Shown in pieces: positions 28,561-60,755 of a DNA stretch of 64,000 nucleotides. Below the pieces are notes generated by a model. The model was not told the DNA's origin. It saw nothing but the letters and a program-made list of their open reading frames with translations, and made no database searches. The DNA lies in the NCBI RefSeq assembly GCF_008369195.1, contig NZ_VOBC01000001.1:992001-1056000 (forward strand). The letters are read 5' to 3'. The DNA is from Sporosarcina sp. ANT_H38 (GTDB lineage: Bacteria > Bacillota > Bacilli > Bacillales_A > Planococcaceae). The first letter of the stretch is position 1. Each line of letters opens with the position of its first letter. A program made the position numbers and the translations under genes.

Positions 28561-30108
28561 ATGGAAAAGAAAATCACGGTTTTTCTGGTGGTATTGTGTG
28601 CACTTGTATCATTTACGATGATTGCCCATGCGGATAATCCTATTATTAAAGATCGTTTCTCTGCTGATCCAGCTGCATTGGTCCATGATGGTAAGGTTTA
28701 TCTATATACGGGTCATGATGAAGCAAGACCTAGTGGAAACACCTTTATGATTAAAGAATGGAATGTATTTTCTTCCGATGACCTTGTGAACTGGGAGCTT
28801 GAAGGTCAATTACCTCGGACGGAATTTAAGTGGGCTCGCAGGGATAGTGCTTGGGCTTCCCAAGCGATTGAAAGAGATGGTCAATTTTATTGGTATGTAA
28901 CAGTATTGAACGGAGATCCGGCTGACCCGGGTTATTCAATTGGTGTTGCACAATCGGATCATCCGGCGAAGGGATTTAAAGATGTACTCGGCGGCCCGCT
29001 TATTACACCGAGCATGACTACAGATCCAGAATATATGGGAACAGTGCCATGGGATGATATTGATCCGTCTGTTTTTATCGATAAAGGTGGTCAGGCTTAT
29101 CTCTATTGGGGAAATACGCATCTTTATTATGTGAAATTGAACGACAATATGATCGAACTGGATGGTGTTATTGAGCGTGTAGAAATCGCAAATATGCCAG
29201 TTGGTTATACGGAAGCACCTTGGCTTCATGAATACGATGGGCAGTATTACTTGACCTATGCAATGAATTATCCAGAAGAGATTGGTTATGCGATGAGTGA
29301 CAGTCCTGAAGGTCCGTGGACATATAAGGGCAAGTTGATGGATAAATTGCCGGGAAGTTCGACAAGCCATCCTGCTATTATTGAGTTTGAAGAGCAATGG
29401 TATTTTATCTATCATGCGGCTACTTTACCTACAGGTGGCGAGTTTAGGCGCTCGACTTCGATAGAAAAAATGTATTATAACCCAGATGGAACCATTCGAA
29501 AAATAATGCCAACTGTATCTGGTGTAAGTGATCATAGTTATTTAATGCAAGCTTATAGCGATGCGGATCGCTATGTGCGTCATATGGGAATTGGACTCCA
29601 AGTGACATCTTTAAAAAAGGATAACACGAATTATAAATGGCATGTCGTACCTGGGTTAGCAGATAATCATGAAACATATCTGTCTTTTCAATCGGATAGT
29701 AAGCCAGGTTTTTATATGAAGAGAAAAGACCAGCAAATAGTGATGGCTAAGAATGACGGAATAGATAGTTTTAAAGAAGCAGCAACATTTCAAGTTGTTC
29801 CGGGTTTAGCTGATAAAAAAGCATCCTCCTATCAGGCATACGGCGATGATTTATATTTGTATCACGATGAGGATAATCAATTGACGTTAACAATGATGAA
29901 CGCAACAAGAGATAGCGAACGTGCAACTTTTCGACTGGAGGGCGTAAAGCTGAAAGCGGATAAGGATGAAGTAACTGTAGAAGCAATTAATGTGGATGAA
30001 ATACCTGTGCCTGCTAGTCGAATTTATGTACCTGTAGGCATCATTGTCCTTGGATTAGCTATAACAACTACACTGTATGCGACGAGAAGGAAAAATAAGA
30101 GTAGATAA
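28561..30108 (+). CDS. Membrane-anchored GH43 arabinan-degrading enzyme with AbfB-like (CBM42) domain
   Basis: Secreted GH43 five-bladed propeller of 515 residues. Signal peptide at residues 1-24 ('MIAHADN' cleavage region). Catalytic triad: Asp36 in 'SADPAAL', Asp168 in 'DIDPSVF', Glu218 in 'YTEAPWL'. From about 330 to 470 there is an AbfB-like (CBM42, arabinofuranose-binding) beta-trefoil: the repeats 'VVPGLADNHETYLSFQS' and 'VVPGLADKKASSYQA' are typical. The C-terminus has one TM helix (about 488-507) followed by 'RRKNKSR', so the enzyme is tethered outside the membrane rather than by LPXTG or lipid. It probably trims arabinan or arabinosylated chains at the cell surface; exact linkage preference is not readable. 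Confidence 0.85.
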   Translation: MEKKITVFLVVLCALVSFTMIAHADNPIIKDRFSADPAALVHDGKVYLYTGHDEARPSGNTFMIKEWNVFSSDDLVNWELEGQLPRTEFKWARRDSAWASQAIERDGQFYWYVTVLNGDPADPGYSIGVAQSDHPAKGFKDVLGGPLITPSMTTDPEYMGTVPWDDIDPSVFIDKGGQAYLYWGNTHLYYVKLNDNMIELDGVIERVEIANMPVGYTEAPWLHEYDGQYYLTYAMNYPEEIGYAMSDSPEGPWTYKGKLMDKLPGSSTSHPAIIEFEEQWYFIYHAATLPTGGEFRRSTSIEKMYYNPDGTIRKIMPTVSGVSDHSYLMQAYSDADRYVRHMGIGLQVTSLKKDNTNYKWHVVPGLADNHETYLSFQSDSKPGFYMKRKDQQIVMAKNDGIDSFKEAATFQVVPGLADKKASSYQAYGDDLYLYHDEDNQLTLTMMNATRDSERATFRLEGVKLKADKDEVTVEAINVDEIPVPASRIYVPVGIIVLGLAITTTLYATRRKNKSR

Positions 30109-30303
30109 ATTTTCAAGGTGGCAAATTCAACTTATACGTTCAATTCTGGTATATACGAATAATTAAACAATGATTATAATAAATTAATCTATTGAAAACT
30201 TAGTAACGAAGGTGAGAAATTCATGAATAGTGAATATATTGGGATAATAAGAGCTGAATACCATTGACAACCAATAATTTAACTACTATAATTTAAAATA
30301 AAG

Positions 30304-30350
30304 TGACGTACGTACAAGTTATACGCTGGATTGCACTCAGATACGTACAT
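30304..30350 (+). promoter_or_regulatory. Paired AraR-like operators before the composite transport operon
   Basis: Box 1, ACGTACGTACAAGT, is centred at 30311.5; box 2, GATACGTACATC, at 30344.5. Both contain the TACGTAC core of AraR sites. The 33-bp centre spacing is about three helical turns. This ties the transporter to arabinose control. Confidence 0.72.
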
Positions 30351-30394
30351 CTGAAAAGAAGTAATAATAACGTTTGGTATATTTTTACTATTTA

Positions 30395-30408
30395 TGAAAG
30401 CGCTTAAA
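30395..30408 (+). promoter_or_regulatory. cre-like (CcpA) site before the composite transport operon
   Basis: TGAAAGCGCTTAAA agrees with the cre consensus at 13 of 14 positions and lies about 75 bases before the start at 30482. Confidence 0.7.
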
Positions 30409-30481
30409 CTTAAGGCGCATATTACACGCTATAATAAGCGCCAATTAAAAATTGACTAGTGAAAAATTTGGAGGTGATATT

Positions 30482-33394
30482 TTGAGCACAATGAATATGA
30501 AGAAAATAGGGATTGTTGGTGTTATTTTAGCATTAGTCATTTTTCAACATCCAAATCCGGCTATTCTTGCACAAGATGATAAAGATAAATCAAAAGGAAA
30601 TACCGTTGTAGAGGGTGCAGCATCTATCCTTGAGAGCAAATACAGTTCATACATAAAAGAACATCGAGGGAAGTCCTATCAGGGGAACGATATAGTTTTG
30701 GATAAACCGGAAAATTGGGTGACGGATACATCTTTATTGACTTCCAATGATGAAAAGACTGCTTTGAGAATAAAGCAAAATGATGAAGCGAACATAACCA
30801 TCCAGGCTCCAGAAACGGCATCTTATTTAATCGGATTACAGTATTCCACTGAGGGAGATAACATATTACCCACGCAACTTGAAATGAAGGTCAATGGACA
30901 ATTTCCTTTTTATGAATTAAGAAACTTAATCTTTGAAAGTAGATGGGAAGTACCTAACGAAACGCTGAAAGATAAGTACGGTAATGAAATTGTTCCGCAA
31001 CCGAACAAGGTAAAGGAATGGCAAGAAAAATTTATTAGCGATGCAAGTTATCGTAGTAGTGAACCTTTTTATATCGAGTTACAAAAAGGAGATAATGAGA
31101 TTACTTTTCGTACGATCGAAGGTAATATCTTAATTCAATCTATCATTCTTGCTTCGGTAGATGAGCTACCTGGTTATCCGGAAGGTAAGGTAGCAGGTAA
31201 TGAATTTATAGTCTTAGAAGCAGAAAGTAGTACCTATAAAAATGATTCCTCTATCCGGGCTAGTTCACTCTATAATATTGATTTGACACCGTATAGTGCC
31301 GGAAAACGAGTAATGAATTATTTAGATAGTGATTCATTTAAAAAACCAGGTCACAAGGTCGAATATGAATTTGAAATAGAAAAATCCGGCTACTATTATA
31401 TGGGAATGAATTACCGTCAAAATGTCAAGATAGATTTCCCGGTATTTGTAAACTTGGCGATTGATGGTGACATCCCATTTAAACAATATAAAAATTATCC
31501 GTTTGACTATACGCCTGAATTTACGCATACGACAATCCGTGACCCCGAAAAGGGCGTGGATATACCGATTTACCTTGAAGCTGGAAAACATACAATCAGT
31601 TTGACAATCAGCTTAGATCATATAAAGTCGACGATTGAAAAAGTCGAACATTTAACGAAAGAAATTCAAACATTATCATTAGAACTCACTAAATTGACAG
31701 GTCCTAGTATTGACCGCAACCGTGATATTGATGTAGAAAAATATATACCCGGTATTACCAAGCAGTTGCAAACTTGGACAGATGAAATGAGTGACCTTTA
31801 TGAAGGGGTTAAAAAGTATAATCCTAATGTAGCAGAGATAGGGGCATTTTCATCTCTTAATATAGCAGAAAAACAATTGAAAAGTCTTTCGAAAAATGTT
31901 GATAAGTTAATTGTGAGAAAAAATGAATTATCAACGGGAACGAACTCTATTACTGCACATTTAGGGAATTTACTGCAAGAAATTATCAATAACGGCTTAG
32001 CTGTCGATAAATTGTATTTCTATCAAGATGCTGAAGATGTTCCAGAAAAAAAAGGGTTTATGAAGAAACAGTTGGCCAAAGTGGAACGTTTGTCGAAGTC
32101 GTTTGGTGAACAAGATTATGCAATTGATACTGTAAATCCAGATCACCTACAAGTTTGGGTTAACAGGCCAAGACAATATATTGAAATCATGCAACAACTA
32201 ATTGACGAACAGTTTACACCATCAACAGGTATTCAGGTCGATATTTCACTAATGCCGGATGAAAATAAGCTTATTTTGTCGAATGCTTCAGGAGATGCTC
32301 CAGACGTAGCAGTTGGCGTCAATTATGCACTTCCTTTTGAAATAGCTATAAGAGGAGCCTTACAAGATCTAACGGAATTCGATGATTTTGATGAAGTGAA
32401 GAAGAGGTTTCCTGAAGGCTTACATGTTCCTGCCGCAGTGAAAAATGGCATTTATGCTTTGCCAGATACGATGAATTTTTGGGTGTTATTTTACCGTAAG
32501 GACATTTTAGATTCACTAGGCCTACCTGTCCCTGATACACTCGAACAAGTGAAATCCTATCTTCCAGAGTTGCAAAGAAAAGGGATGAACTTCTTTTATC
32601 CGACAGCAGGTATGGCGGGTCTAAAGACCTTTGCTAGTACAATGCCAATTATTTATCAAAATGGTGGTAATTTTTACGGAGATACCATTGGTCGAACGGC
32701 ATTAAATGAAGAAGAATCCATTGAAGGTATGCGGCAATTGACAGAACTGTTCACGATTTACAATATGCCCTATGAAGTTCCTAGTTTTTATCAGCAATTT
32801 AGGGACACGTCATTACCAATCGGTATATCAGATTATTTCATGTACAATCTGATATTAAATGCAGCACCAGAAATAGCGAATACTTGGGATATTGCATTGA
32901 TGCCTGGTATTGAAAATGAAGATGGAGAGATTGAAAGATGGTCTGCAGGTGGAGCTGAAAGTAATGTGATTTTTGAGGATTCTGCGAAAAAAGAAGAATC
33001 ATGGGAGTTCTTGAAATGGTGGTCTAGTACAGACGTACAGATCGCATTTGGTAATAATCTTCAAACGACATATGGTAAAGAATATATTTGGAACACAGCA
33101 AATATAGAAGCCTTTGAAGGACTGCCTTGGGTTACAAATCATAAAAATGTAATTTTAGAGCAAACAGAGTGGGTCACAGAAGTACCAAGAGTTCCAGGAA
33201 GTTACATGCTTGAAAGAGAAATTAGTAATGCTTATAACTCTATTGTGTTAGATGGAGCAAACTTTAGAACAGCTATTGACTTGGCAAGTAAACGTATCAA
33301 TCGTGAAACTTTTAGGAAGTTGGAGGAATTTGGCTTTATGAAAAATGGCGAGACTATAGAGCCTTATCCAAATCCAGAGTTTACTAACGAGTAA
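30482..33394 (+). CDS. Very large extracellular sugar-binding protein with N-terminal extension
   Basis: About 970 residues, more than twice a normal solute-binding protein. Start is TTG at 30482 with GGAGGTGAT 7 bases upstream. Signal peptide about 1-32 ('[12 protein letters not shown]'), with no lipobox Cys, so retention at the membrane must be by other means. Residues about 60-390 look like two carbohydrate-binding-type beta-sandwiches ('[20 protein letters not shown]', '[11 protein letters not shown]', '[13 protein letters not shown]'). About 390-550 is a helical/coiled-coil spacer. About 550-950 is a family-1 binding domain ('[20 protein letters not shown]', '[16 protein letters not shown]', '[19 protein letters not shown]', 'WEFLKWWSS'). 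It is the first gene of the transport operon under AraR- and cre-like sites. Ligand probably arabino-oligosaccharide (inference). Confidence 0.82.
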
Positions 33395-33408
33395 CGGAGG
33401 GCAAGTGT

Positions 33409-34290
33409 ATGCAAAAAGACAAAAAGAATCCATATCTCTTTTTGCTTCCATATGTATTATTATTTTCAGTGTTTATCATCATCCCGATTGTAATGGCCAT
33501 TTACCTATCATTTACGAATTTTAATACCATTGAAACACCTAACTTTATCGGGTTTTTAAACTATCTTAACTTGTTAACGCAGGATGAAATATTTATGCAA
33601 TATGTCTTGCCTAACACTGTATTGTTTGCGGTAATTGTTGGACCGGGAGGATATATATTATCCTTCCTGTTGGCCTGGAGCTTATCACAATTAACAAGAG
33701 TGCCGCGTATGATCTTGGCATTAATTTTCTATTCACCATCTATGACATCGGGTGTAGCAATGGTTGTTGTTTGGAAAGTCTTGTTTAGTGGTAATCAGGC
33801 TGGTTATGTAAATAGCATATTGATGAAATTTGGTATTCTCACAGAACCACTGATATTTTTACAGGATACTAGATTTATCATGTTAATTATGATTATTGTA
33901 GCCCTTTGGGGAAGTATGGGTGTTGGATTCTTAGCTATGCTTGCAGGTGTTCTAAATGTAGATGAAACACTCTATGAGGCGGGCGCTATTGATGGTATTC
34001 GAAATCGCTTCCAAGAGCTATTTTACATTACGATTCCATCAATGAAACCACAAATGTTGTTTGGTGCAGTAATGGCTATTGTCGGAACTTTTTCTACCGG
34101 AGTTATTGGTGTGGCACTGACAGGATCGAACCCCACACCCTCATATGCGGGACAATTAATTGTTAACCATATTGAAGACTATGGATTTATTCGATTTGAA
34201 ATGGGTTATGCAGCAGCACTTTCAGTTGTATTATTGCTGATTATTTTCTTGTTTTCTTATATCTCGAAAAAGCTGTTTAGCGAATCCTAA
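33409..34290 (+). CDS. Sugar ABC permease, first pair, subunit 1
   Basis: CUT1 MalF-type permease of 293 residues: N-terminal '[30 protein letters not shown]', six TM helices, EAA loop '[23 protein letters not shown]' near residues 189-211. It lies 14 bases after the giant binding protein gene and 15 before the partner permease, so the three form an importer. There is no ATPase gene nearby; MsmX at 59658 is the presumed partner. Confidence 0.92.
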
Positions 34291-34305
34291 GAGAGGAAAG
34301 ATTCT

Positions 34306-35175
34306 ATGGCCTTAAAAGTTAGTGGTAATAATCCAAGTAAATTTAATAGGAGTCAAATTAAGTTTTATGTATTTTTAATACCCTTTGCATTGTTCATGAT
34401 GCTTCCGATTCTCTTTATCATCAATCATGCCTTTAAACCATTAGATGAACTATTTGCGTTTCCACCGCGATTTTTCGTCAATGCACCAACATTTGATAAC
34501 TTTAGGAATTTGTTTGATTTGGCGAATACGTCCGGAATCCCTTTAAGTAGATATGTGTTGAACAGTTTAATTGTCACAGTTGCAGTTGTATTCTTTTCTA
34601 TCATTATTTCTGCGATGGCAGGGTTTGTTCTATCGAAAAAGCAATTTAGAGGAAAAAAAGCACTATTTGAAATCAATAATGTTGCCTTGATGTTTGTACC
34701 AATTGCAGTTACCATCCCTAGATTTTTAACGATTTCATTCTTAGGGATTGATGATACATTTTTTGCTCATATTTTGCCATTGCTTGCTATGCCAGTAGGG
34801 CTGTTTTTGATCAAACAGTTTATTGATCAGATTCCGGATGCCTTAATTGAAGCGGCCATTGTTGATGGGGCAAATGATTTTCAAATCTTTTGGAAAATTA
34901 TTCTGCCGCTCATCAAACCAGCGTTGGCAACAGCTGCTATTTTAGTATTCCAAGTAGTATGGAATAACGTAGAAACATCAACGTTGTTTACGACAAGTGA
35001 AAATATGCGTACGTTAGCATTCTTTATGAATACACTTGCAGTAAATACGAATGTTGTCGTTGGACAAGGTATGGCGGCCGTTGCATCCCTTATTATGTTT
35101 ATTCCGAACTTAGTTTTATTTATTATTTTACAAAGTAGTGTAATGAACACGATGTCACATTCAGGGTTAAAGTAG
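34306..35175 (+). CDS. Sugar ABC permease, first pair, subunit 2
   Basis: CUT1 MalG-type permease of 289 residues with EAA loop '[22 protein letters not shown]' near 184-205 and a hydrophobic N-terminal helix ('[26 protein letters not shown]'). It pairs with the permease encoded just before. The next gene (NHL/Yip1-like protein) starts 8 bases after its stop, which suggests that protein acts with this importer. Confidence 0.92.
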
Positions 35176-35183
35176 GTGTAAAA

Positions 35184-37226
35184 ATGTTGGGTAAGAAAAG
35201 GTATATATCATTTTTGATTAGCATTGCACTCTTCTTCTTTATCAATCAAAATGTGATATTTGCAGGTACAGCATATAAGACATTTACAGAAGATGGTTAC
35301 GGAAATTATGTAGAAACGCAATCTGCCTACACAGTTTCTAATACCATTGTAAAATTTGGTGATGAACTTTTCTCGCAGCCATCTGATCTAGCGATTGGTG
35401 ATGATCAACTTCTCTATGTCTCTGATACTGGAAATCATCGAATTCTGGTCGGTGATAAACAAGGAAATCTAATCCGTATCATTGGTGAAGAAGTGTTAAA
35501 GAAACCGAATGGTATTTTTCTATCGGAGGATAACAAATTATATGTAGCTGATGAGACAGCGGCAAAAGTATTTGTATTCTCTTTAGAAGGGGAGTTACTA
35601 GCGGAATTTGGTAAGCCTGATAGTATCTTATTTGGTGAAAAAGCTAACTTTGTCCCTGAGAAACTTGCTGTAGATCGTCGTGATAATATTTACATTATTT
35701 CTCGTGGTAATTCAAATGGTATTATTCAAATTAATGCTAATAACGGAGAGTTTATCGGTTATTTTGCACCGAATAAGACCATGGTTACGCCGCTAACTGT
35801 TTTTAGAAAAGCAATATTTACAGATGAACAGCTTAGCAAAATGATTGATACAATCCCTTCGACAGCTAAGAATCTTAACCTCGATGACAAAGGTCTTGTC
35901 TACACCGTGTCTCAAGGTGAACAAATAGAAGCAATCAAGAAATTGAATATGGCGGGAAAAAATATTATTGGAACAGATCTTTTTGACGCTTTTCCAGTGT
36001 CAATTGATGTTGGATCACTAGAAAATGTTTTTGTCGCAGGTGAGAATGGTTTTATCTATGAGTACACCAGTGAAGGGAACTTGCTATTCGTGTTTGGAGG
36101 GCAAGATGATGGACGGCAGCGTGTAGGTCTTTTCAATAAAATTTCAGCCATTGCATTGGATGAAAATGATTCGATTTTCGCATTAGACTCTGAGAAAAAA
36201 CAAATTCAAGTATTCGAACCCACGGAATTTGCAAGTTTAGTCCATAAAGCATTAACACTTTATCAAAATGGAGACTATGAAGGTAGTAAAGCACCGTGGC
36301 AAGAAGTTATTAAGCTAAATAGTTTATTCGATTTTGCAAATCTAGGACTTGGTGAAGCGTATTTTAAAGATGAAAATTATGTGGATGCTTTAGCGTCATT
36401 TAAACTAGCAAAATATAAACCGGGTTATTCTGATTCGTATTGGGAACTTCGTAATAAATGGATGCGTGAAAATATCATTGCATTACTGTTTATAATTATT
36501 GCATTATTTATTATTAACAAAGTAATTAGTAGAATTGAAAAAAAGTATCAATTCTGGTCTGAGTTTAAAACGAAGATAGATAATAAGTACAATCTTAAGT
36601 TAATGAAAGATCTTGCTTTTGTGAAAAATTTTATACGTCATCCGCTGGATAGCTTTTACAGCATTAAATATGAAAATAAGACAAGCATTCTATCATCGAC
36701 TATTTTAATGTTTGTGTTCTTTATCATTTATTTATTAGAAAAGTACTATTCAGGTTTCATTTTTGGGACTATTGAAGAAGGAGATTTTGCGCTTGGTTCT
36801 GATTTTGCCCTAGTGTTTGGCGCGCTGCTGTTAGTGATTATTTCAAACTACCTCATTTGTACGATAAATGATGGTGAAGGGCGCTTTAGGCATATCTATA
36901 GTGGTTTTATCTATTCTTTTGCCCCCTATTTTATCATCAAACCGTTTGTCATCATTGCAAGTAATTTCTTAACTTTTAATGAAGCTTACTTATTGAGTCT
37001 AACAAACGTTATTATTTATGTTTGGGTAGCTATATTACTCGTTATCATGATTAAAGATATCAATGATTATTCAATAAAAGAAACGATTAAAATCATCTTT
37101 TTGACGATGTTTACGATATTAATAGCTGTCTTACTTATCTTTATTGTTTATGTATTAATTTCACAATTGATATCATTTGTGATGTCAATAATTAATGAGG
37201 GGGTGTATCGAATTGAAAATGGTTAA
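35184..37226 (+). CDS. Membrane protein with extracellular NHL propeller, TPR-like pair and Yip1-like domain
   Basis: 680 residues. Signal peptide about 1-27; NHL-type beta-propeller about 45-340 (repeats such as 'QPSDLAIGDDQLLYVSDTGNHRILV', 'KPNGIFLSEDNKLYVADE', 'KISAIALDENDSIFALD'); TPR-like pair about 350-415 ('ALTLYQNGDYEGSKAPWQEVIKLN', 'GEAYFKDENYVDALASFKLA'); a TM helix about 430-450; then a Yip1-like domain of about five TM helices to the C-terminus. It is wedged between permease and DUF5696-like genes and overlaps the latter by 14 bases, so it is translated with the transporter. Function unknown; a scaffold or oligosaccharide-handling role at the membrane is plausible from the architecture. 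Confidence 0.75.
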   Translation: MLGKKRYISFLISIALFFFINQNVIFAGTAYKTFTEDGYGNYVETQSAYTVSNTIVKFGDELFSQPSDLAIGDDQLLYVSDTGNHRILVGDKQGNLIRIIGEEVLKKPNGIFLSEDNKLYVADETAAKVFVFSLEGELLAEFGKPDSILFGEKANFVPEKLAVDRRDNIYIISRGNSNGIIQINANNGEFIGYFAPNKTMVTPLTVFRKAIFTDEQLSKMIDTIPSTAKNLNLDDKGLVYTVSQGEQIEAIKKLNMAGKNIIGTDLFDAFPVSIDVGSLENVFVAGENGFIYEYTSEGNLLFVFGGQDDGRQRVGLFNKISAIALDENDSIFALDSEKKQIQVFEPTEFASLVHKALTLYQNGDYEGSKAPWQEVIKLNSLFDFANLGLGEAYFKDENYVDALASFKLAKYKPGYSDSYWELRNKWMRENIIALLFIIIALFIINKVISRIEKKYQFWSEFKTKIDNKYNLKLMKDLAFVKNFIRHPLDSFYSIKYENKTSILSSTILMFVFFIIYLLEKYYSGFIFGTIEEGDFALGSDFALVFGALLLVIISNYLICTINDGEGRFRHIYSGFIYSFAPYFIIKPFVIIASNFLTFNEAYLLSLTNVIIYVWVAILLVIMIKDINDYSIKETIKIIFLTMFTILIAVLLIFIVYVLISQLISFVMSIINEGVYRIENG

Positions 37227-39564
37227 CATTAAAACCGTTATCAAACCCATCCTTTTTATAGTCTTGTTATTGGCTGTAATAATCTATTTGTTTACGGGAA
37301 AAGAATCAAAAGAAATTGTAGGTCCGCCGAAAGTGCCTGAACCAACTGTTACTGAAGGTTCGAATGAAGAAGAGGGGTCTAGTGAAGGTGTAACACAGCC
37401 TGAAGTAGCTGCACCTGAGCAACTAGGTAAAGATGATAAAACACCGGAAAATAGGGCGGGATTTTACGATGTAACACAACAAGAAATTGATGGTCATCGA
37501 TTTGTCGTAGCGAATGATCAACAAGAAATGTACATGAAGGAAGAAAATTTATCCATCATTATGAGGGATAAAAATACGGGTGCAGTTATGTATTCAACGG
37601 TTGACAAGCCGGTGAAAAGTAATGAGGAATGGACGAACTTCATGAGATCGTCCATTGTTCTGGAGTATCTTGTAGGTACCAATATTGTTGTTTATCGTGC
37701 AGATATGTATTCAGGAAATCCAGAAAAGAAAATAACCTATACAACAGATGGTTTTGTAGCAAATATCTATTATCCGGAGCTAGAAATTTCTTATGAAGTG
37801 CAAGTACTTTTAACAGATGAAGGCTTTAAAGTGGAAATTCCTCAAGATAAAATTACAGAGGATAATAGTAAGTACAAAGTGGCAGGCGTATATGTCTATC
37901 CTTTCTTAGGTTACTCAAAGCTAGATGATCGAGAAGGTTATATGTTCATACCTGATGGTTCTGGGGCTTTGATTCGATTGAAAGATAACGATGGCAAATT
38001 TAAACAACCCTATTCTGAAATGGTTTACGGTTCCAATGTGGGGATAGATGATTCATATGTTTTATCCCTATTTAATCAAATGAATCCTTTTAATAAACCA
38101 GAACGTATTTTGGCTCCAGTGTTTGGTATGGTTCAAACAGATTTAGCAATGGGCTATTTAGGGATTATTGAAGAAGGTCAATTTAGTGCAAAGGTTGAAG
38201 CGTATCCAAGCGGTGCAATTATCCCGTATAACTGGATTACAGCTAAGTTTATTTATCGTCAGGTGTATAACCAACCAACGAGTAAGGATTCCGGAACGAT
38301 GGTTGTACGTCAAAAGAATATGAATAACTTTGACATTAAGGTTCGTTATGATTTTGTTTCTGAAGACAAAGCGGATTATGTAGGTTTGGCTGGAAAATAT
38401 CGTACATATTTACTGTCCAATAAATTGATTACTGAAAAGGGCAATGAATTTAAAGTACGAGTGGATTTATTGGGTTCAGATATAGAAAAAGGGTTAGTCT
38501 TTAACAAGGATATACCGATGACTACTTTTGAACAGGCAAGTGAAATTTTCAATGGTTTGCAAGACAATGGTGTAAAAGATATTTTGTCTATTTATAAGGG
38601 CTGGCAAGATAATGGCTACTACGCAAGTTTACCCGTTCGATCCTTTAAAACAGAATCGAAGTTAAGTGATGAAATGACAATACAGGACTTAATGCAGGAG
38701 ACGAAAGATAAAAGTATCGACCTGTACCTTGGTCACGACGCATTGAGAATTAACGGAGAAGAACAAGGAAATACGAAATATAAAGTAATGAAAAAGTACA
38801 ATAAGCAAGCTTATAATGAAAACGTTTATGGTAAAGTTTACAATTCCTTTGGTTACTTAAATCCTCAATCTTCTGCAGATATTATGGAAAAGATGAAAAA
38901 GGAATATAAGGATAATGACGTTGATAATATTATGATTAGTGGAATTTCGAATGAGCTTTTTTCTTACAGTGAGGGCAGTAAAGAATTTGATCGGATTAAG
39001 ACCAAAGAATACTATGAGTCGATTGTGGCTGATTATAGTGACAACTTTAATATATTATTAGAGCAGCCATTTTCTTATCTATGGGATTATACTAACAAAG
39101 TTGTTGACCTTCCGATGAAGTCATCTAATTACGTGTTTACAGATGAGGAGATTCCGTTTTTAGCGCTAACGTTGAGAGGAATTGTTCCATTATATTCGGA
39201 GTATACCAATTTTCAGGCAAACCAAAAAGAGTTTTTCTTACAGCTAGTGGAACAAGGGTTGAATCCATCTTTCTATATCACGCACGAAGACCCGTCAGAA
39301 TTGCTGAACACCAATTCTTCACATATTTATAGTTCAAAATATGACCGTTACGATGAAATGATACAAGCTTACTACCAGGAGTTAAAGGAAGTCTACGAGC
39401 AAACAGAGGGTTCTATCATTCAGGATTATAGTCGTTTAAATGGCGTTACCAAAGTAACTTATGGCAACGGTACAATCATTTATGTCAACTATCAGCAACA
39501 AGACGTCCAGTTCGACGGACTAACCATTAAGGGCTTGTCATATAAGGTGGTGCAAGACCATTGA
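37213..39564 (+). CDS. DUF5696-like membrane-anchored protein
   Basis: 783 residues from TTG 37213 (GAGGGGG 9 bases upstream; it overlaps the previous gene by 14 bases). One N-terminal TM helix about 8-28 ('IKPILFIVLLLAVIIYLF'), an acidic Pro/Glu/Ser-rich spacer about 30-80 facing outside, then a large extracellular domain of about 700 residues. This matches the DUF5696 proteins that accompany CUT1 permeases in Paenibacillus-type sugar operons. The second half may be a TIM-barrel-like fold ('GVKDILSIYKGWQDNGYY', 'LYLGHDALRING', 'NILLEQPFSYLWDYTN'), which would fit a glycoside-hydrolase-like ancestor; this is inference. No catalytic residues can be assigned by eye. The next permease gene overlaps its stop. 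Confidence 0.7.
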   Translation: MKMVNIKTVIKPILFIVLLLAVIIYLFTGKESKEIVGPPKVPEPTVTEGSNEEEGSSEGVTQPEVAAPEQLGKDDKTPENRAGFYDVTQQEIDGHRFVVANDQQEMYMKEENLSIIMRDKNTGAVMYSTVDKPVKSNEEWTNFMRSSIVLEYLVGTNIVVYRADMYSGNPEKKITYTTDGFVANIYYPELEISYEVQVLLTDEGFKVEIPQDKITEDNSKYKVAGVYVYPFLGYSKLDDREGYMFIPDGSGALIRLKDNDGKFKQPYSEMVYGSNVGIDDSYVLSLFNQMNPFNKPERILAPVFGMVQTDLAMGYLGIIEEGQFSAKVEAYPSGAIIPYNWITAKFIYRQVYNQPTSKDSGTMVVRQKNMNNFDIKVRYDFVSEDKADYVGLAGKYRTYLLSNKLITEKGNEFKVRVDLLGSDIEKGLVFNKDIPMTTFEQASEIFNGLQDNGVKDILSIYKGWQDNGYYASLPVRSFKTESKLSDEMTIQDLMQETKDKSIDLYLGHDALRINGEEQGNTKYKVMKKYNKQAYNENVYGKVYNSFGYLNPQSSADIMEKMKKEYKDNDVDNIMISGISNELFSYSEGSKEFDRIKTKEYYESIVADYSDNFNILLEQPFSYLWDYTNKVVDLPMKSSNYVFTDEEIPFLALTLRGIVPLYSEYTNFQANQKEFFLQLVEQGLNPSFYITHEDPSELLNTNSSHIYSSKYDRYDEMIQAYYQELKEVYEQTEGSIIQDYSRLNGVTKVTYGNGTIIYVNYQQQDVQFDGLTIKGLSYKVVQDH

Positions 39565-40415
39565 GAATAAAAAGAAAAACGATTTACGGTTATTTATTTA
39601 TCATGCCATGGCTAATAGGTTTTTTATTATTAGTACTATGGCCGTTGATCCAATCTTTTTATTTTAGCTTAAATAATATGAGGATCACGCCAATTGGATT
39701 AAAGTTTAAATTCGTGGGTTTTAATAATTACTTGGATGTCTGGCTGAAAGATATGTTTTTCATCCAAGAATTATTGCAATTCCTTGTGAATACGGCACTA
39801 AGGGTACCCGTTATTGTTGTATTTGCTTTGATTATTGCCATGCTATTAAATGAAAAGGTTAAATTTAAAGGAGCTTTTAGAACAATTTTCTTTTTGCCTG
39901 TTATTGTAGCAAGTGGACCTGTCATTGATCAGCTAATTGGTCAAGGTGCAGCAACTATTCCGCTGGCTGACCAAGAGGTTATTATTACAACTTTACATCA
40001 GTTCCTGCCTATGTGGTTTGCACAGGTGATTGGTGAATTATTTAATCAAATCATTATCATTTTATGGAACTCAGGTGTACAGATTTTGCTCTTTCTTGCT
40101 GTGTTGCAAAAGATTGATCCGCAGCTATATGAGGCGGCGAAAATTGATGGAGGTTCTGGTTGGGAATGTTTTTGGAAAATCACACTACCAACCATCAAGC
40201 CAATTATTTTGATCAATTTAATTTACACACTTGTGGCATTGGCCAATAGTAATCAGAATCCAATCATTAACTTGATATATTCAAATATGTTTTCGGCAAC
40301 GAGAGGCTATGGTTTTGCGTCTGCAATGGCCTGGATGTATTCAATTGTTACAACAATATTATTGATTATTATTTTCTTGATTTTCCGAGATAAAAAACCT
40401 AAAAGAATACTATAG
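39561..40415 (+). CDS. Sugar ABC permease, second pair, subunit 1
   Basis: CUT1 MalF-type permease of 284 residues; start TTG at 39561 overlaps the stop of the DUF5696-like gene, with AAGGTGG 11 bases upstream. N-terminal 'IYGYLFIMPWLIGFLLLVLWPLIQSFYFSL' and EAA loop 'EAAKIDGGSGWECFWKITLPTI' near 191-212. It is the second MalF-type permease in this operon, so the operon encodes two complete permease pairs. Confidence 0.92.
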   Translation: MRIKRKTIYGYLFIMPWLIGFLLLVLWPLIQSFYFSLNNMRITPIGLKFKFVGFNNYLDVWLKDMFFIQELLQFLVNTALRVPVIVVFALIIAMLLNEKVKFKGAFRTIFFLPVIVASGPVIDQLIGQGAATIPLADQEVIITTLHQFLPMWFAQVIGELFNQIIIILWNSGVQILLFLAVLQKIDPQLYEAAKIDGGSGWECFWKITLPTIKPIILINLIYTLVALANSNQNPIINLIYSNMFSATRGYGFASAMAWMYSIVTTILLIIIFLIFRDKKPKRIL

Positions 40416-40429
40416 AAAGGAGGCAAACC

Positions 40430-41431
40430 ATGTCATTGCAAAAATCAAAAGGTTTTTCTTCAGTAATGAAAAATCCCGCTATTAGCAACAAAGAGAAATT
40501 TAGAGTGGTCAAAGGAAAGGCATTTCGATTTCTCTTTGGTTTCAATGATAGAAGGGGGTTTGTTTTAAAACTACTTACATACACATTGCTCATTAGTATT
40601 GGTTTTGTGTACTTATATCCAATGTTACATATGTTTGTAACGAGTATTAAATCATTAGAAGATTTGCTTGATATGTCGATTAAGTGGTTACCTTCTACTA
40701 TCTATACAAGTAATTACGAACAAGCCTATTCTGTAATGAATATAAAATCGGCTTTTAAAGGGAGTTTACTACTTGCCTTACTACCAACTATTTGCCAGGT
40801 GGTGGTCGCTTCCCTTGTAGGATTTGGCTTAGCTAGATACAACTTCCCGTTGAAGAAACTGTTTTTTGGATTGATGATTTTCAGTTTTATCATCCCACCA
40901 CAAATTTTGATGATGCCGATGTATCGGTTATTAAGTGCATTGGAATTAACTGGATCAATAAATGCTTTTATTGTTCCGGCTCTATTAGGACAGGGGTTAA
41001 ATAGTACAATTTTCATTTTGATTTTCTATCAATTTTTCAAACAAACACCAGAAACATTATATGAGGCGGCGGAGGTAGATGGTGCTAACCAATTTACCAT
41101 TTTCTTTAAAATTGCTATCCCAATGGCAGTCCCGGCCTTTATCGTATCCTTCTTATTCTCATTTGTTTGGTATTGGAATGAAACCTATTTAACGACCCTT
41201 TATCTAACGAGTCGATCAACGGATATAACGACAATCTTATTACAATTACAGCAATTTGAACAAAATTACGAGGCCATGTATCCTGTCACAGCAAATAGCC
41301 CGAATAAAATTAATGAAGGCATTAAAATGGCGGGGACGGTGATTAGTATTTTACCATTACTAATCGTTTACTTTTTTCTACAAAGATACTTTGTTGAAAG
41401 TGTCGACAAAAGTGGTATTACTGGTGAGTAA
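40430..41431 (+). CDS. Sugar ABC permease, second pair, subunit 2
   Basis: CUT1 MalG-type permease of 333 residues, longer than usual because of a 40-residue cytosolic N-terminal extension before the first TM helix ('LLTYTLLISIGFVYLYPMLHMFV'). The EAA loop is 'EAAEVDGANQFTIFFKIAIPMA' near 207-228. AAAGGAGG precedes the ATG by 7 bases. It is partner of the permease just before and is followed by a second binding lipoprotein gene. Confidence 0.92.
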   Translation: MSLQKSKGFSSVMKNPAISNKEKFRVVKGKAFRFLFGFNDRRGFVLKLLTYTLLISIGFVYLYPMLHMFVTSIKSLEDLLDMSIKWLPSTIYTSNYEQAYSVMNIKSAFKGSLLLALLPTICQVVVASLVGFGLARYNFPLKKLFFGLMIFSFIIPPQILMMPMYRLLSALELTGSINAFIVPALLGQGLNSTIFILIFYQFFKQTPETLYEAAEVDGANQFTIFFKIAIPMAVPAFIVSFLFSFVWYWNETYLTTLYLTSRSTDITTILLQLQQFEQNYEAMYPVTANSPNKINEGIKMAGTVISILPLLIVYFFLQRYFVESVDKSGITGE

Positions 41432-41472
41432 TCACCTTGATATAATTTTTTCATTATAAAGGGGGAACTATT

Positions 41473-42918
41473 ATGAAGCGAAAATCACTAGCTGGTCTTG
41501 TATGTGTACTGTTGTTAATGTTACTGATGGTAGTTGGTTGTTCGAATGATGAAAAACCATCAGGTGGAGAAAAAGAGGGCGACAAAGAGACTGAAGATGG
41601 TGCTAAAGAGTTGTCTCTAGAACCTATGACAACAGAAGACATTACATTGACGTATGCATCTTGGGCTAATGGTGCCCTCAATCAGGAGTTAGCTAATAAG
41701 TTTATGGAGCTGTATCCAAATATTACAGTTGAGCTCGTTCAGTTAGAACAAGAAGGTTGGAACGATCACTTAACAAATCTAGCAAGTACAGGTGAATTAC
41801 CAGATGTATTTTGGTATTTAGGAAATGTAGACATTGCTGTTCGAAATAGCTGGCTAGGAGACATGACAGAGTACTTTGAAAATGACCCGGAGTCTGAAAC
41901 TGTTTTATCGACATTAAAGGACCAAGGCTATTTTGATGGTGAAAGAAAACTGGCTGCACCTGTTGCTTACCAACCCTATACAATCTTTTTAGATGAAAAC
42001 CTATTCAATAAGATGAATAAGGATATGCCTTCAGCTGATTGGACGTATAGTGAAATGATTGATTTAATGAAAGAAATGACCGTGCCAGAACAAGGGATTT
42101 ACGGTTATAATTCATATACAAAATTACTAACAATGGCACCAATCGTTAATGCTGATGGTAATGGAGAATTCGGTTGGGATGGAGAGAAATACGATCTTAC
42201 AAAGGATTGGGCAGATGCGACAACCCAACATGCCGAACTAGTGAGGAGTGGTGTACATGCTCCGCTATTCGATACCGATGAAGCTGAAGCTGCTTTCGGT
42301 GATCGCTTGCTGTGGGCGGCAAATACTGGCCGTTTAGCAATGCAATTAGATGCATGGTGGTCAGTTGGATTGTTCTCACAACCTGAATTTATGGAAAAGG
42401 GAATGAAGTGGGTTCCATATGTTGTTCCAAAAGGAGATACTGCAGAAACATTGCATAAACCAGCTTTTATTGACTTCGGTTCATTCTCTTCTGCTACAGA
42501 GCATCCACGTGAAGCGTATGAGTTGTTGAAATTCTTTGGATGGGGTAAAGAAGGATGGGAAACAAAATTACAGGCATTTAAAACATTGGAAAATGAAGAC
42601 GGTTCATTACTATTTAAGCATCCGGATGGATTACCATTAATCGAGGATGAAAAAATTTGGAGTGAATTAAGAGCGTTACTGCCAGAATCTCAGTATTACA
42701 CTGATTTCTTAGAACGAGCAAAAGAACCAATTCCATTAGGAGGAGCTTCACAACCTGGATTCCAAACATTCTTGGATGAAGTTTACTTTGGTGGAGAATA
42801 TGGGGATGTTGAAGCGGCTATTATGAATGGGGATGTAAACGCCCATGACATTGCTGAGGATTTAACAGAAAAGATCAATCAGTACAGAGAAGATGCATTA
42901 GCTGAATTGTTTTTTTGA
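41473..42918 (+). CDS. Sugar ABC importer, second substrate-binding lipoprotein
   Basis: Family-1 solute-binding lipoprotein of 481 residues. Lipobox 'LMVVGC' with Cys23, an acidic linker (about 24-55), then binding domain ('ITLTYASWANGALNQELANKFMELYPNITVELVQ', 'LPDVFWYLGNVD', 'APVAYQPYTIFLDENLFNK', 'GRLAMQLDAWWSVGL'). It has a standard size unlike the giant binding protein at the head of the operon. It presumably serves the permease pair directly upstream. AAGGGGG precedes the ATG. A hairpin after the gene separates it from the GH43 arabinanase. Confidence 0.9.
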   Translation: MKRKSLAGLVCVLLLMLLMVVGCSNDEKPSGGEKEGDKETEDGAKELSLEPMTTEDITLTYASWANGALNQELANKFMELYPNITVELVQLEQEGWNDHLTNLASTGELPDVFWYLGNVDIAVRNSWLGDMTEYFENDPESETVLSTLKDQGYFDGERKLAAPVAYQPYTIFLDENLFNKMNKDMPSADWTYSEMIDLMKEMTVPEQGIYGYNSYTKLLTMAPIVNADGNGEFGWDGEKYDLTKDWADATTQHAELVRSGVHAPLFDTDEAEAAFGDRLLWAANTGRLAMQLDAWWSVGLFSQPEFMEKGMKWVPYVVPKGDTAETLHKPAFIDFGSFSSATEHPREAYELLKFFGWGKEGWETKLQAFKTLENEDGSLLFKHPDGLPLIEDEKIWSELRALLPESQYYTDFLERAKEPIPLGGASQPGFQTFLDEVYFGGEYGDVEAAIMNGDVNAHDIAEDLTEKINQYREDALAELFF

Positions 42919-42958
42919 TAAATAAATAAATGAATGAAGGATAGTTTGTTCGATTGGT

Positions 42959-43010
42959 TGGCAGGTGAAATTCTTGTAAGTAAAGAATTTACCTGCCTCT
43001 CTTTAATATC
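42959..43010 (+). terminator. Hairpin between binding lipoprotein and arabinanase genes
   Basis: GGCAGGTGAAATTCTT pairs with AAGAATTTACCTGCC (one bulged G) and is followed by TCTCTTTAAT. It may be a partial terminator, so the GH43 gene is probably expressed by read-through. Confidence 0.6.
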
Positions 43011-43029
43011 AGTAGAAAGGTGTGAAAAG

Positions 43030-44331
43030 ATGATACCTCTACATAATATTCCAAAAGACAGAGAGCATGATGAAAGAATACAGCAAGACGAATCGCTTTG
43101 GGCAACTCATAATGTACATGATCCATCTATTTATAAAGAGGGGGATTGGTATTATGTATTCTCAACAGATGCTCAAGAAGGTGGAACATTCAAAGCGGGC
43201 ATCCAAATTAGAAAGTCGAAGGACTTAGTCAATTGGCAATGGGTAGGACGTGCATTTACAGAAGTACCAGGACCTGCAAAGAATTGGACTGGTGCAGTTG
43301 GTTTGTGGGCACCAGATGTTACGAAGTTTGGTGATACTTATTATCTATACTATGCTGCATCACAGTTTGGTAAGACACAATCCTTCATAGGTGTTGCAAC
43401 GAGTACTCATATTGAAGGTCCTTGGATTGACAAGGGTGAAGTCGTCAAGACTGAACAAGATGAAGGCCCGAATGCAATTGATCCTAATATAAGTATTGAT
43501 GAAAAAGGGGATCCGTGGATGGTATATGGGTCGTTTTTTGGTGGGATTTTCTTAGCTAGAATTAATAGCGCAACGGGTAAATTTGCTGAAGAGGGAAAGG
43601 GGACGCTGATAGCTAGACGACATGCAAGTGTTGAAGGTGCTATCGAAGGTCCCTATATCGTTTATAATCCCCATTTTGATTATTATTACTTATTCGTCTC
43701 CTATGATTCTCTATTTTCTTCGTACCATATAAGAGTGGCGCGTTCTAAACATATTGAAGGCCCCTATGTTGACAGTAAGGGGCATGAAATGACAAATACT
43801 GAACTTCCCCCAAATGATGTTGGGATGAAAGTACTTGGGAGTTATCAATTTGATGGTGGTCCCGCTTGGATAGCTCCTGGTCATAATTCTATATTAAAGG
43901 ATCAAGAGGATTATTATGTTGTCCATCATGTTCGTATGGAAGGCAAGAAAGGGCATTATCTACATATCCGGAAAATTGGGTGGACAGAGGATGGTTGGCC
44001 ACTTGTGTCACCACAACGATATGCAGGAGAACAAGATAAAGTGGTGAATATTGATGATGTACTGGGAAATTGGGAATGTATTTATTTTGATAAAGATAAT
44101 AATGGTAAGATGAATGCCTTGAATATTTGCATTACTACCCATCATAATGATCCTAATGCCTATGTAGTGGAACAACACGCTGATAATTATTTTTCGTTAT
44201 TTTCTTCTCGACATCCATCAATAGACGGAATTATGATCCAGGGATGGGATTGGGAGCAATGGATTGAAACTATTGTATTTATGGGGAAGGATAGCGAGGG
44301 CAATGTTTTGGTTGGAAAGCGAAGGGAATAG
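43030..44331 (+). CDS. Intracellular GH43 endo/exo-arabinanase
   Basis: GH43 enzyme of 433 residues without signal peptide, so cytosolic. Catalytic triad: Asp31 in 'VHDPSI', Asp151 in 'AIDPNI', Glu206 in 'IEGPYI'. These motifs and 'LWAPDV' and 'APGHNSI' match the arabinanase subfamily (AbnA/Abn2/AbnB). A C-terminal beta-barrel-like extension (about 325-433) resembles that of Abn2-type enzymes. The ATG at 43030 follows GAAAGG; an earlier in-frame ATG (42934) lies within the hairpin region and is unlikely. As last gene of the transport operon it should shorten imported arabino-oligosaccharides. Confidence 0.87.
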   Translation: MIPLHNIPKDREHDERIQQDESLWATHNVHDPSIYKEGDWYYVFSTDAQEGGTFKAGIQIRKSKDLVNWQWVGRAFTEVPGPAKNWTGAVGLWAPDVTKFGDTYYLYYAASQFGKTQSFIGVATSTHIEGPWIDKGEVVKTEQDEGPNAIDPNISIDEKGDPWMVYGSFFGGIFLARINSATGKFAEEGKGTLIARRHASVEGAIEGPYIVYNPHFDYYYLFVSYDSLFSSYHIRVARSKHIEGPYVDSKGHEMTNTELPPNDVGMKVLGSYQFDGGPAWIAPGHNSILKDQEDYYVVHHVRMEGKKGHYLHIRKIGWTEDGWPLVSPQRYAGEQDKVVNIDDVLGNWECIYFDKDNNGKMNALNICITTHHNDPNAYVVEQHADNYFSLFSSRHPSIDGIMIQGWDWEQWIETIVFMGKDSEGNVLVGKRRE

Positions 44332-44449
44332 GCCATTGTAACTTGCGATAAGAATGTAGTATATCCTTCACTCGTACGGTCTAATATGCCGTTTTCGGAA
44401 TATATATTCGCGAAGTGAAGTACTGCATGTTATTATAGTAATAATGAAA

Positions 44450-44470
44450 GATACTTGTACGTTCAATTCA
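44450..44470 (+). promoter_or_regulatory. AraR-like box before araR (autoregulation)
   Basis: ACTTGTACGTTCAATT, centred at 44460.5, matches the AraR consensus at 13 of 16 positions and lies 44 bases before the araR start. A weaker box, CTCGTACGGT, is centred near 44377.5. Autorepression of araR is known in B. subtilis and is likely here. Confidence 0.7.
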
Positions 44471-44503
44471 ATTAAAAGAGAGAAAGCTGCCAGGGGTGTG
44501 AAA

Positions 44504-45622
44504 ATGAAAACCAAATATAGTATCGTAAAGGACTCTATTAAGTCAAAAGTTTTAGAAGGAACGTACCAGCCTAACCAAAAAATTAGTTCTGAAAGTGAAT
44601 TAATGGAAGAGTTCGGCGTTAGTCGACATACCGTTAGACTCGCGATTGGTGACTTGGTGATCGAAGGGTGGTTATATAGGGAGCAAGGTTCCGGGACTTT
44701 TTGTGCGGACCGAACAGAAAATGCATCAAAAATTACTGGAGAGAAATCTAAGAATATCGCTATCATTACGACGTATATTTCAGATTATATTTTCCCTTCT
44801 ATTATAAGAGGTGCAGAAAAACATCTAAGTGAAAATGGTTATAATGTTATGTTATTCAGTACGAATAATAATCATGAAACCGAAAAAAATGTACTGGAAA
44901 CGATTCTTTCACAAAAGTTTGATGGTGTCATTGTTGAACCGACAAAAAGTGCGATTGCCAATCCAAATATTAATTATTATTTGAATTTGGAGAACCAAAA
45001 CATTCCATATATCATGATTAACTCTTATTATGACGAGCTAGATCCCGTTAGTATTACGTTAAATGATGAAAAGGGAGGATATCTTCAAACGGCCCATTTG
45101 ATGGAATTGGGGCACAAGAATATTGTCGGTTTTTTTAAAACGGATGATAAACAAGGCTCAAAACGAATGAAGGGCTATTTAAAAGCTCATCGTGACAATC
45201 ATATAACGATAATTCCTAATAATATCATTGCCTACAAAACGGATGAAATGATGACTAAGCCGTTAGAAGAATTTGAAAGAGTTTTATCGTTGACTAATAT
45301 CGAATGGCCAACTGCAATTATTTGCTATAATGATCAACTAGCTATGAAGTTATTGGATATTATTCGAGAGCGAAAGTTAAAAGTTCCGGAAGATATTTCA
45401 ATCGTTGGATTTGATAATTCTTTTTTAGCGAGCATATCTGAAGTGAAGTTGACAACGATTCAACACCCCCAAAGCGAATTAGGTGCAACAGCAGCAAAAC
45501 TAATTTTAGATTTGATAAATGATAAAAAAGGTGAACATAAAAAAGAAGATCACAAGATAGAATCGGTCATTTTTGAGCCGACATTAGTTGTGCGGAATTC
45601 GACAAAGAAGCTTGATGCATAG
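44504..45622 (+). CDS. araR: Arabinose-responsive repressor, GntR-type HTH with LacI-type effector domain
   Basis: 372 residues with the chimeric AraR architecture: N-terminal GntR winged helix (about 1-70: 'IKSKVLEGTYQPNQKISSE', 'FGVSRHTVRLAIGDLV', 'GSGTF') and a LacI/GalR-type sugar-binding domain (about 85-370: 'NIAIITTYISDYIFPSIIRGAE', 'FDGVIVEPT', 'AIICYNDQLAMKLLDIIRE', 'DISIVGFDNS', 'LVVRNS'). The ATG at 44504 follows AGGGGTG; an earlier in-frame ATG at 44444 lies inside the operator. It lies between the transport operon and the abfA operon and should bind the AraR-like boxes found at five promoters in the window. L-arabinose as effector is inferred from family. Confidence 0.93.
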   Translation: MKTKYSIVKDSIKSKVLEGTYQPNQKISSESELMEEFGVSRHTVRLAIGDLVIEGWLYREQGSGTFCADRTENASKITGEKSKNIAIITTYISDYIFPSIIRGAEKHLSENGYNVMLFSTNNNHETEKNVLETILSQKFDGVIVEPTKSAIANPNINYYLNLENQNIPYIMINSYYDELDPVSITLNDEKGGYLQTAHLMELGHKNIVGFFKTDDKQGSKRMKGYLKAHRDNHITIIPNNIIAYKTDEMMTKPLEEFERVLSLTNIEWPTAIICYNDQLAMKLLDIIRERKLKVPEDISIVGFDNSFLASISEVKLTTIQHPQSELGATAAKLILDLINDKKGEHKKEDHKIESVIFEPTLVVRNSTKKLDA

Positions 45623-45631
45623 GAATATGGA

Positions 45632-45701
45632 CAGAAGCTTAAGTGAATACAATCCACTACAAAAAGATACCTGTTTTAGGTATCTTTTTTGTAGTGGATT
45701 G
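45632..45701 (+). terminator. araR terminator (first copy of a duplicated unit)
   Basis: A 22-bp stem, CAATCCACTAC plus AAAAAGATACC pairing with GGTATCTTTTTTGTAGTGGATTG around TGTTTTA. The core GATACC/GGTATC plus T6 is a standard terminator. The preceding bases CAGAAGCTTAAGTGAATAC are repeated 156 bases downstream. Confidence 0.85.
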
Positions 45702-45787
45702 CCCAATTACACCGCATGTTTTGTTGGGGAAATATGATGTTTCTTGTGGGGAATATTATTAGATGATGCTCTTGCATAGGGGGTGTT

Positions 45788-59512: not shown

Positions 59513-59625
59513 CTCTATTTTTTGGAAACTAAATTCATAGTAAATGTGCACGAACACTATCCAGATCTTTGTGCATATTCACCATTACTAGAATAGTATA
59601 AATAATGTATGCTATTAGTAGTTAA

Positions 59626-59639
59626 TGAAAGCACTTACA
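59626..59639 (+). promoter_or_regulatory. cre-like (CcpA) site before msmX
   Basis: TGAAAGCACTTACA fits cre at 13 of 14 positions and lies 18 bases before the ATG at 59658. Catabolite control of the shared ATPase would switch all dependent importers together. Confidence 0.68.
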
Positions 59640-59657
59640 TACTTTGGAGGGAATATA

Positions 59658-60755
59658 ATGGCAGACTTGAAATTGGTAAATATAAGAAAAGTATATGACA
59701 AAGATGTAGTTTCCGTTAAAGATTTTAGTTTGGAAATTAGAGATAAAGAGTTTTTAGTATTAGTTGGTCCATCTGGTTGCGGAAAATCAACAACACTTAG
59801 AATGATTGCAGGTTTGGAAGAAATTTCAGGGGGCGATCTTTTCATCGGGGGAAAAAGAGTGAACGACGTCCCACCAAAAGATCGTGACATCGCAATGGTT
59901 TTCCAAAACTATGCACTGTATCCCCATATGGATGTTTACAATAATATGGCATTTGGTTTGAAGCTTCGTAAATTTAAAAAAGACGAAATAAAAAAACGTG
60001 TTGATAATGCCGCTAAGATTTTGGGACTTGAGGACCTCTTAACTCGAAAACCTAAGGCCCTCTCAGGTGGACAGCGTCAGCGTGTTGCTTTAGGACGTGC
60101 TATTGTCCGAGATGCTGAAGTATTCTTAATGGATGAGCCATTATCTAACTTAGATGCTAAGTTACGTGTACAAATGCGTGCGGAGATTCAAAAGTTACAC
60201 AGACGCCTGCAAACAACAACAGTTTATGTAACCCACGATCAGACTGAAGCAATGACAATGGCAACACGGCTTGTTGTAATGAAAGATGGACTCATCCAGC
60301 AAGTAGGAGCACCTAAAGAAGTTTATGATGAACCTAATAATGTTTTTGTTGGTGGTTTTATCGGTTCTCCTGCAATGAACTTCTTAAACGGTAAAATTGA
60401 AGGTAATTATTTCGTTATGGATGATATAAAAGTTCTTATTCCTGAGGGTAAGATGAAATATCTTCGTGAGCAAAACTATGTCGGTAAAGATATCATTCTT
60501 GGAATTCGTCCAGAAGATATTCATGATGAACCGGTATTTCTTGATTTTTCTCCTGAAACAAAAATCAGAGCCTCGATTGAAGTTGCTGAATTAATGGGTG
60601 CAGAAATCATTCTTTATTCTAAAGTAAATGACCAAGACTTTGTTGCTCGTGTTGATGCGCGTTTCAACGTTGTGGCTGGCGAAACGATTGACTTAGCATT
60701 CGATCTTAATAAAGCGCACTTTTTCGATAATGAAACAGAATTACGAATTAAATAA
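59658..60755 (+). CDS. msmX: Shared ABC sugar importer ATPase, MsmX/UgpC type
   Basis: CUT1-family ATPase of 365 residues: Walker A '[12 protein letters not shown]' near 37-48, Q-loop '[10 protein letters not shown]' near 80, signature 'LSGGQRQR' near 135, Walker B '[14 protein letters not shown]' near 155, and a C-terminal MalK-type regulatory OB domain ('[13 protein letters not shown]'). The ATG at 59658 with GGAGGG upstream gives the family length; an in-frame ATG at 59625 lies in the cre site. It is the only sugar importer ATPase in the window, while three CUT1 permease pairs lack one. MsmX in B. subtilis is known to energise several importers, including AraNPQ, so it is the expected partner here. 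Confidence 0.93.

Follow-up and report, generated by a model that had tools for sequence, protein, structure and literature searches.

Little is understood of how bacteria without an outer membrane take up glycans of more than a few units, and a CUT1 importer is usually pictured as one binding protein with one permease pair. A stretch of 64,000 nucleotides from Sporosarcina sp. ANT_H38 (NZ_VOBC01000001.1, positions 992,001-1,056,000, forward strand), henceforth referred to as the window, raises the question of what kind of importer would combine two permease pairs, two binding proteins and two further large membrane proteins in a single run of genes. The run spans positions 30482-44331 and contains nine genes, all on the + strand and with spacing of no more than 41 nucleotides or short overlaps, as read from the sequence and its open reading frames (ORFs). 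Eight of these genes occupy 30482-42918, and a GH43 gene then closes the run. The first seven genes, from a giant binding protein to permease B2, are referred to below as the block. Pfam analysis identified SBP_bac_1 in two of the nine proteins, four BPD_transp_1 permeases, an NHL/Yip1 protein, a DUF5696 protein and a final Glyco_hydro_43 protein (Table 1). The domain content and the gene spacing agree with the initial annotation of this DNA, which had proposed a composite transport operon. A broken or merged gene set was considered, but the genes of the block are open and full length. The block is read here, at slightly better than even confidence, as a single specialised importer of the CUT1 type that has a surface platform and takes up long soluble glycans.

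Conservation of the gene block

Loci for comparison were gathered by DUF5696 alone, and the 104 used consist of the best 80 of 581 confirmed relatives (the named loci) and 24 selected from 41 copies in a sample of the class; the profiles for the individual roles were seeded from 24 loci also counted. Six stretches around weak matches (L057-L062), of which L057-L061 carry GH129 proteins, were excluded from the 104. The order giant protein, A1, A2, NHL(-Yip1), DUF5696, B1, B2 was complete on one strand in 90 of the 104 loci, where the test covers the order and strand of these seven roles and not intervening genes. Yip1 was present in all 90 complete loci. The remaining 14 loci miss only parts that lie past a contig end, and everything that they hold is in order. 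The named loci span Bacillota, Chloroflexota, Haloplasma, Izemoplasma, Acholeplasmatales and a Halanaerobiales bin, and the order was unchanged at DUF5696 identities down to 22%.

DUF5696 is rare in the window's family, scoring over its cut-off in 1 of 101 genomes and in none of the 8 other members of the genus that were listed; across the class, 26 of 299 genomes gave such a match. Two of these 26 (G292/L059 and G272/L058) are short-stretch matches in GH129 proteins, so that 24 class genomes contain a full DUF5696 gene. Strong matches to the NHL-Yip1 profile (E < 1e-90, propeller part) were found in exactly those 24 of the 299 genomes, and strong matches to the N-terminal profile of the giant protein in exactly the same 24. 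The three genes co-occur one to one, with 41 copies each among the matches listed, and a lone extra copy is possible because 3 to 6 candidates (NHL-Yip1 and giant-protein searches) or 4 (DUF5696) were scored per genome. Outside the 24 genomes, the NHL-Yip1 profile gave many weak generic NHL propeller matches among those listed (best E 5e-21) and the giant-protein profile gave two short matches (E 7e-8 and 1e-6). The fixed order across loci, together with the shared 24 genomes, rules out a chance neighbourhood and places the NHL/Yip1 and DUF5696 genes within the transport operon. The initial annotation had named the occurrence of these two genes mostly without sugar permeases in other genomes as the case against it; this was not seen in the 104 loci.

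The literature search returned no description of the block, and the term DUF5696 appeared in none of the papers covered. The combination of two permease pairs with two additional obligate proteins, in a fixed order from Bacilli to Chloroflexota, points to an importer architecture undescribed in the literature searched. For DUF5696, the analysis provides a fold, a genomic setting and a role that can be tested, linked to beta-1,2-glucan and arabinan use; the gene could serve as a marker of long-glycan uptake in genomic and metagenomic data.

Among the 41 DUF5696 copies, two are divided, by a split frame in G298 (L052, G298:C1:2968324-2970137) and across two contigs in G258. In the genomes G171 and G322, the DUF5696, NHL and giant-protein genes are each present three times, which suggests a separate glycan for each copy.

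Permeases, binding proteins and accessory proteins

The CUT1 features tested for were found, namely a sugar-type binding protein, EAA-loop permease heterodimers and an available MalK/MsmX-type ATPase. The EAA-loop glycine is kept in 96/96 A1, 97/97 A2, 98/99 B1 and 97/97 B2 proteins, window included, and both pairs should therefore couple to an ATPase. A stricter EAA pattern missed 21 of 98 B1 proteins, and the two inspected read EASKMEG. The MalK/MsmX-type ATPase encoded in the window is the probable shared motor; a weaker second one lies elsewhere in the genome. An MsmX-like ATPase was absent from the fetched stretch in 102 of the 104 loci, in keeping with a shared motor of the kind described for MsmX in PMC5730181. 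In 79 of 90 loci an ordinary binding protein lies next to the block, upstream in 71 and downstream in 12, including 4 loci with one on each side; one representative of the binding-protein clusters (L074) had no Pfam match.

The same observations could describe two independent, ordinary CUT1 importers that are merely co-transcribed, one consisting of the giant protein with A1A2 and the other of the lipoprotein with B1B2, with NHL-Yip1 and DUF5696 as uncomplexed accessories. Intact EAA loops in each pair and a possible receptor for each would suit such an arrangement. It is nevertheless considered unlikely, since the order is fixed in all 104 loci over the length covered by their contigs, with NHL-Yip1 and DUF5696 between the pairs. 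Neither pair was seen alone with these partners in this DUF5696-based sample, lone pairs elsewhere not having been searched for.

Structures were predicted for single chains. A start of the giant protein at 30482 is plausible, with a TTG codon six bases after GGAGGT giving 970 residues. SBP_bac_1 (PF01547) is confined to residues 565-849, numbered from 30494. The model, with a mean predicted local distance difference test score (pLDDT) of 85.8 and a predicted template modelling score (pTM) of 0.84, contains beta-sandwiches at about 60-220 and 238-373, followed by helices at 375-500 and, from about 547, by a part like maltose-binding protein. Pfam assigns no family to either sandwich. The second is similar to the CBM35 region of cycloisomaltooligosaccharide glucanotransferase (E 9.5e-8), and the first gave a single weak hint (E 0.032). 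A loose lipobox pattern was found in 7 of 94 giant proteins and in 16 of 104 DUF5696 proteins across the loci, and several of these matches look spurious. Model and sequence bear out the N-terminal sandwiches and the missing lipobox described earlier for this protein.

The DUF5696 domain (PF18952) matched at 585 bits over profile positions 1-612 of 612, above its cut-off. Fold comparison, in which non-listing does not mean absence, showed a GH129 fold over the whole length of the protein, shared with GH129 NagBb (5wzn) and GH129-like ZGAL_3152 (5opq), and profile comparison showed kinship to PF11308 proteins of Bacilli. Unlike GH129 proteins, DUF5696 proteins lack a conserved catalytic pair, carry a membrane or lipid anchor and have importer genes alongside. 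The catalytic columns were positioned via an alignment at 11% identity, with E478 presumably the second member of the NagBb pair. The other, D435, is identified as catalytic in the available part of PMC5698469. Both columns are acidic in 2 of the 104 loci, and the window, with S574 and E615 (M572 in an alternative hhalign register), is not among them. The protein was not filed as a GH129 enzyme because the fold agrees but the catalytic pair does not; from its sequence, DUF5696 has probably lost catalysis.

Alternatively, DUF5696 could be a surface glycosidase that is active through a different catalytic arrangement, with the NHL protein as its scaffold, making the block a set of enzyme plus importer. 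In addition to the fold, other acidic columns are well kept (D246 in 104/104 loci, 678 in 103 and 643 in 96), and the related ZGAL_3152 departs from the NagBb pair yet is active, according to the same portion of PMC5698469. The scarcity of acids at the two GH129 catalytic columns makes this alternative quite improbable. Separately, Bacilli GH129 (PF11308) proteins at L058-L061 exceed the DUF5696 cut-off through their C-terminal part, and weak DUF5696 annotations may thus be GH129 enzymes.

In the NHL-Yip1 protein, NHL and Yip1 scored above their Pfam cut-offs and TPR_16 below its own. One signal-like segment at the N terminus is followed by an NHL-type propeller, whose best solved relatives are designed NHL-type propellers, then by a TPR-like stretch (356-411) and a membrane segment near 425. 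The Yip1 part spans six hydrophobic windows and is an integral membrane domain. Most Paenibacillus-type loci encode NHL-TPR and Yip1 in two separate, adjacent ORFs. Although pseudo-enzyme and propeller architectures and the integral membrane Yip1 part would suit surface sensors of glycan load, gating the importers or signalling to the cell, Pfam found no signalling domain among the block's proteins and such a role is very improbable.

Proposed mechanism and substrates

For the single specialised importer favoured here, the CBM35-like modules of the giant protein would catch glycan chains and pass an end to its own binding lobes. The outer, membrane-anchored DUF5696 protein may form a platform together with the NHL propeller, which would sit on a TPR stalk and be held in the membrane by the Yip1 domain; this platform would keep the chain and the binding proteins above the permease heterodimers A1A2 and B1B2, both driven by a common MsmX-type ATPase. 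In this genome, the surface GH43 would cut arabinan and the block would import long arabino-oligosaccharides, whose breakdown could be completed inside by GH43, the arabinofuranosidases, GH127 and AraABD-type enzymes. The initial annotation had suggested a surface handling complex; the outside anchoring of DUF5696 and its glycosidase fold without a conserved catalytic pair are consistent with surface handling by a putative complex. A broader and more tentative version, held at less than even confidence, is a single-membrane utilisome in which a pseudo-GH129 protein holding the chain, an NHL/TPR stalk rising from a Yip1 base and a binding protein equipped with CBMs would serve two ABC translocators, feeding polysaccharide-length glycans (beta-1,2-glucan, other beta-glucans, arabinan) to cytoplasmic endo-enzymes.

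The block does not conform to a simple AraNPQ/Sopn-type importer with one binding protein and one permease pair. AraNPQ-MsmX of Bacillus subtilis resembles it in CUT1 arabino-oligosaccharide uptake, putative for the block, in a separate multipurpose ATPase and in an arabinose-gene neighbourhood, but as described in the available text of PMC5730181 has one binding protein and one permease pair, without a giant binding protein, NHL-Yip1 or DUF5696. By sequence profile, the binding part of the giant protein is closest to Lin1841 (5ysb) of the Listeria innocua sophoro-oligosaccharide importer. As beside many relatives of the block, such importers adjoin GH35, GH144 and GH3 genes; unlike the block, they are described as standard ABC importers, extra proteins not being mentioned in the available parts of PMC8861115 and PMC12369401. 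The Bacteroidetes outer-membrane utilisome, as outlined in the accessible portion of PMC7618045, is similar by analogy in placing surface glycan-binding parts on a long-chain transporter, whereas it uses an outer-membrane SusCD barrel and lid in place of cytoplasmic-membrane ABC permeases, and no homology was found. Pfam detected no SusC barrel or SusD lid domain in the block's proteins, which limits the earlier comparison with a SusCD-type system to a functional analogy.

Enzyme genes of several families lie beside the loci. GH35 clusters adjoin 32 loci and GH144 clusters 31 (both in 27), followed by GH3 (11), GH16 (8), GH2 (7) and GH30 (4), each name resting on one Pfam-tested representative. 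Gene clusters for beta-1,2-glucan are known to combine GH144 and GH35 (PMC8861115, PMC12369401), and GH144 includes some enzymes with an exo mode of action (PMC8861115). An N-terminal hydrophobic segment was found in 0 of 39 GH35 copies and was absent from 23 of 39 GH144 copies, which suggests that the chains are cleaved intracellularly. Within the window, the surroundings of the block include genes for an arabinose isomerase, a sugar kinase, an aldolase-type araD-like protein and a GH127 protein. Relatives of the window's arabinofuranosidases (blastp 1e-25, fetched flanks of at most 10 kb) occurred only beside L069, and those of its GH43 only beside L069 and L120; other GH43 genes lie beside L084 and L116. 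Since only L069 has the window's arabinofuranosidases, arabinan appears to be a local adaptation. The arabino-oligosaccharides predicted earlier suit these gene surroundings, and an arabinan system as a general rule was rejected, arabinan genes being rare and GH144/GH35 genes far commoner beside relatives.

Several observations weigh against a single importer of long chains. GH144 is exported in at least 10 of the 31 loci, and the cargo may thus be cut before uptake. The nearest fetched relatives (L063-L068 and L084; DUF5696 57-66% identical) are flanked by few or no arabinan genes. An ordinary binding protein is missing beside the block in 11 of the 90 loci, some through ORF-calling artefacts. 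Finally, the strict order could reflect co-transfer instead of a complex.

Neighbouring features and regulatory sites

Table 1 Features of the block and its surroundings in the window.
Feature	Position	Strand	Evidence
Exported GH43 with AbfB, C-terminal membrane anchor	28561..30108	+	PF04616 147.6 bits, PF05270 76 bits; hydrophobic segments at 1 and 481 of 515
Operator-like site ACTTATACGTTCAATT	30130..30145	+	one base apart from site at araR-like gene
Sigma-A-type promoter TTGACA-17-TATAAT	30264..30292	+	12/12 matches
cre-like site	30395..30408	+	1 mismatch to consensus
Giant binding protein, 970 aa: signal sequence, two CBM35-like sandwiches, helical part, CUT1-type solute-binding part	30482..33394	+	
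Permease A1	33409..34290	+	PF00528; EAA loop EAGAIDG
Permease A2	34306..35175	+	PF00528; EAA loop EAAIVDG
NHL propeller, TPR-like part, membrane segment, Yip1 membrane domain, 680 aa	35184..37226	+	
DUF5696 protein, N-terminal membrane anchor and outer GH129-like fold without conserved catalytic pair	37219..39564	+	
Permease B1	39561..40415	+	PF00528; EAA loop EAAKIDG
Permease B2	40430..41431	+	PF00528; EAA loop EAAEVDG
Ordinary solute-binding lipoprotein, 481 aa, lipobox VVGC	41473..42918	+	PF01547, sequence
GH43 without export signal; endo-arabinanase-like by NCBIfam models, below their cut-offs	42934..44331	+	
AraR-like regulator (GntR + Peripla_BP_3)	44444..45622	+	Pfam
Operator-like site ACTTGTACGTTCAATT	44453..44468	+	at araR-like gene
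Two alpha-L-arabinofuranosidase-type genes	46166-47740 and 47751-49244	+	PF06964 in both
MalK/MsmX-type ATPase	59625..60755	+	PF00005, PF17912, PF08402

The GH43-AbfB protein encoded just upstream of the block is, judging from its sequence, a probable surface arabinan-degrading enzyme. The GH43 that closes the run lacks an N-terminal hydrophobic segment, in line with its earlier assignment as intracellular. The true start of the AraR-like regulator is probably the ATG at 44504. An Rfam scan of 28000-46500 gave no match.

AraR- and cre-like sites had been reported at the head of the operon, and this is partly borne out. A cre-like site is present there, and such sites number 14 on both strands of the window compared to 2.15 expected. 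The ACTTRTACGTTCAATT pattern at 30130 recurs at the araR-like gene (44453), a sharing that is post hoc because the pattern was derived from these two sites themselves. The strict AraR consensus of B. subtilis was rejected as support, as it was not enriched in the window (2 found, 0.71 expected). Sigma-A-type sites as a class were likewise not enriched in the window, with 72 found compared to 76.2 in shuffles.

Three further observations concern the surroundings. A single 798-aa frame at 51619-54015 joins an AraM-like N half (Fe-ADH_2) to a C half with Big_4 and GH43, an unusual fusion, and a 331-aa ORF at L069 matches it at 52%. A PF02522 gene (aminoglycoside 3-N-acetyltransferase-type) lies at 27593-28387, between araA and the exported GH43 gene. 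Positions 13769-19914 encode another CUT1 importer, of the simple kind with a binding protein and two permeases, along with a LacZ-type GH2; a cre-like site lies at 13730.

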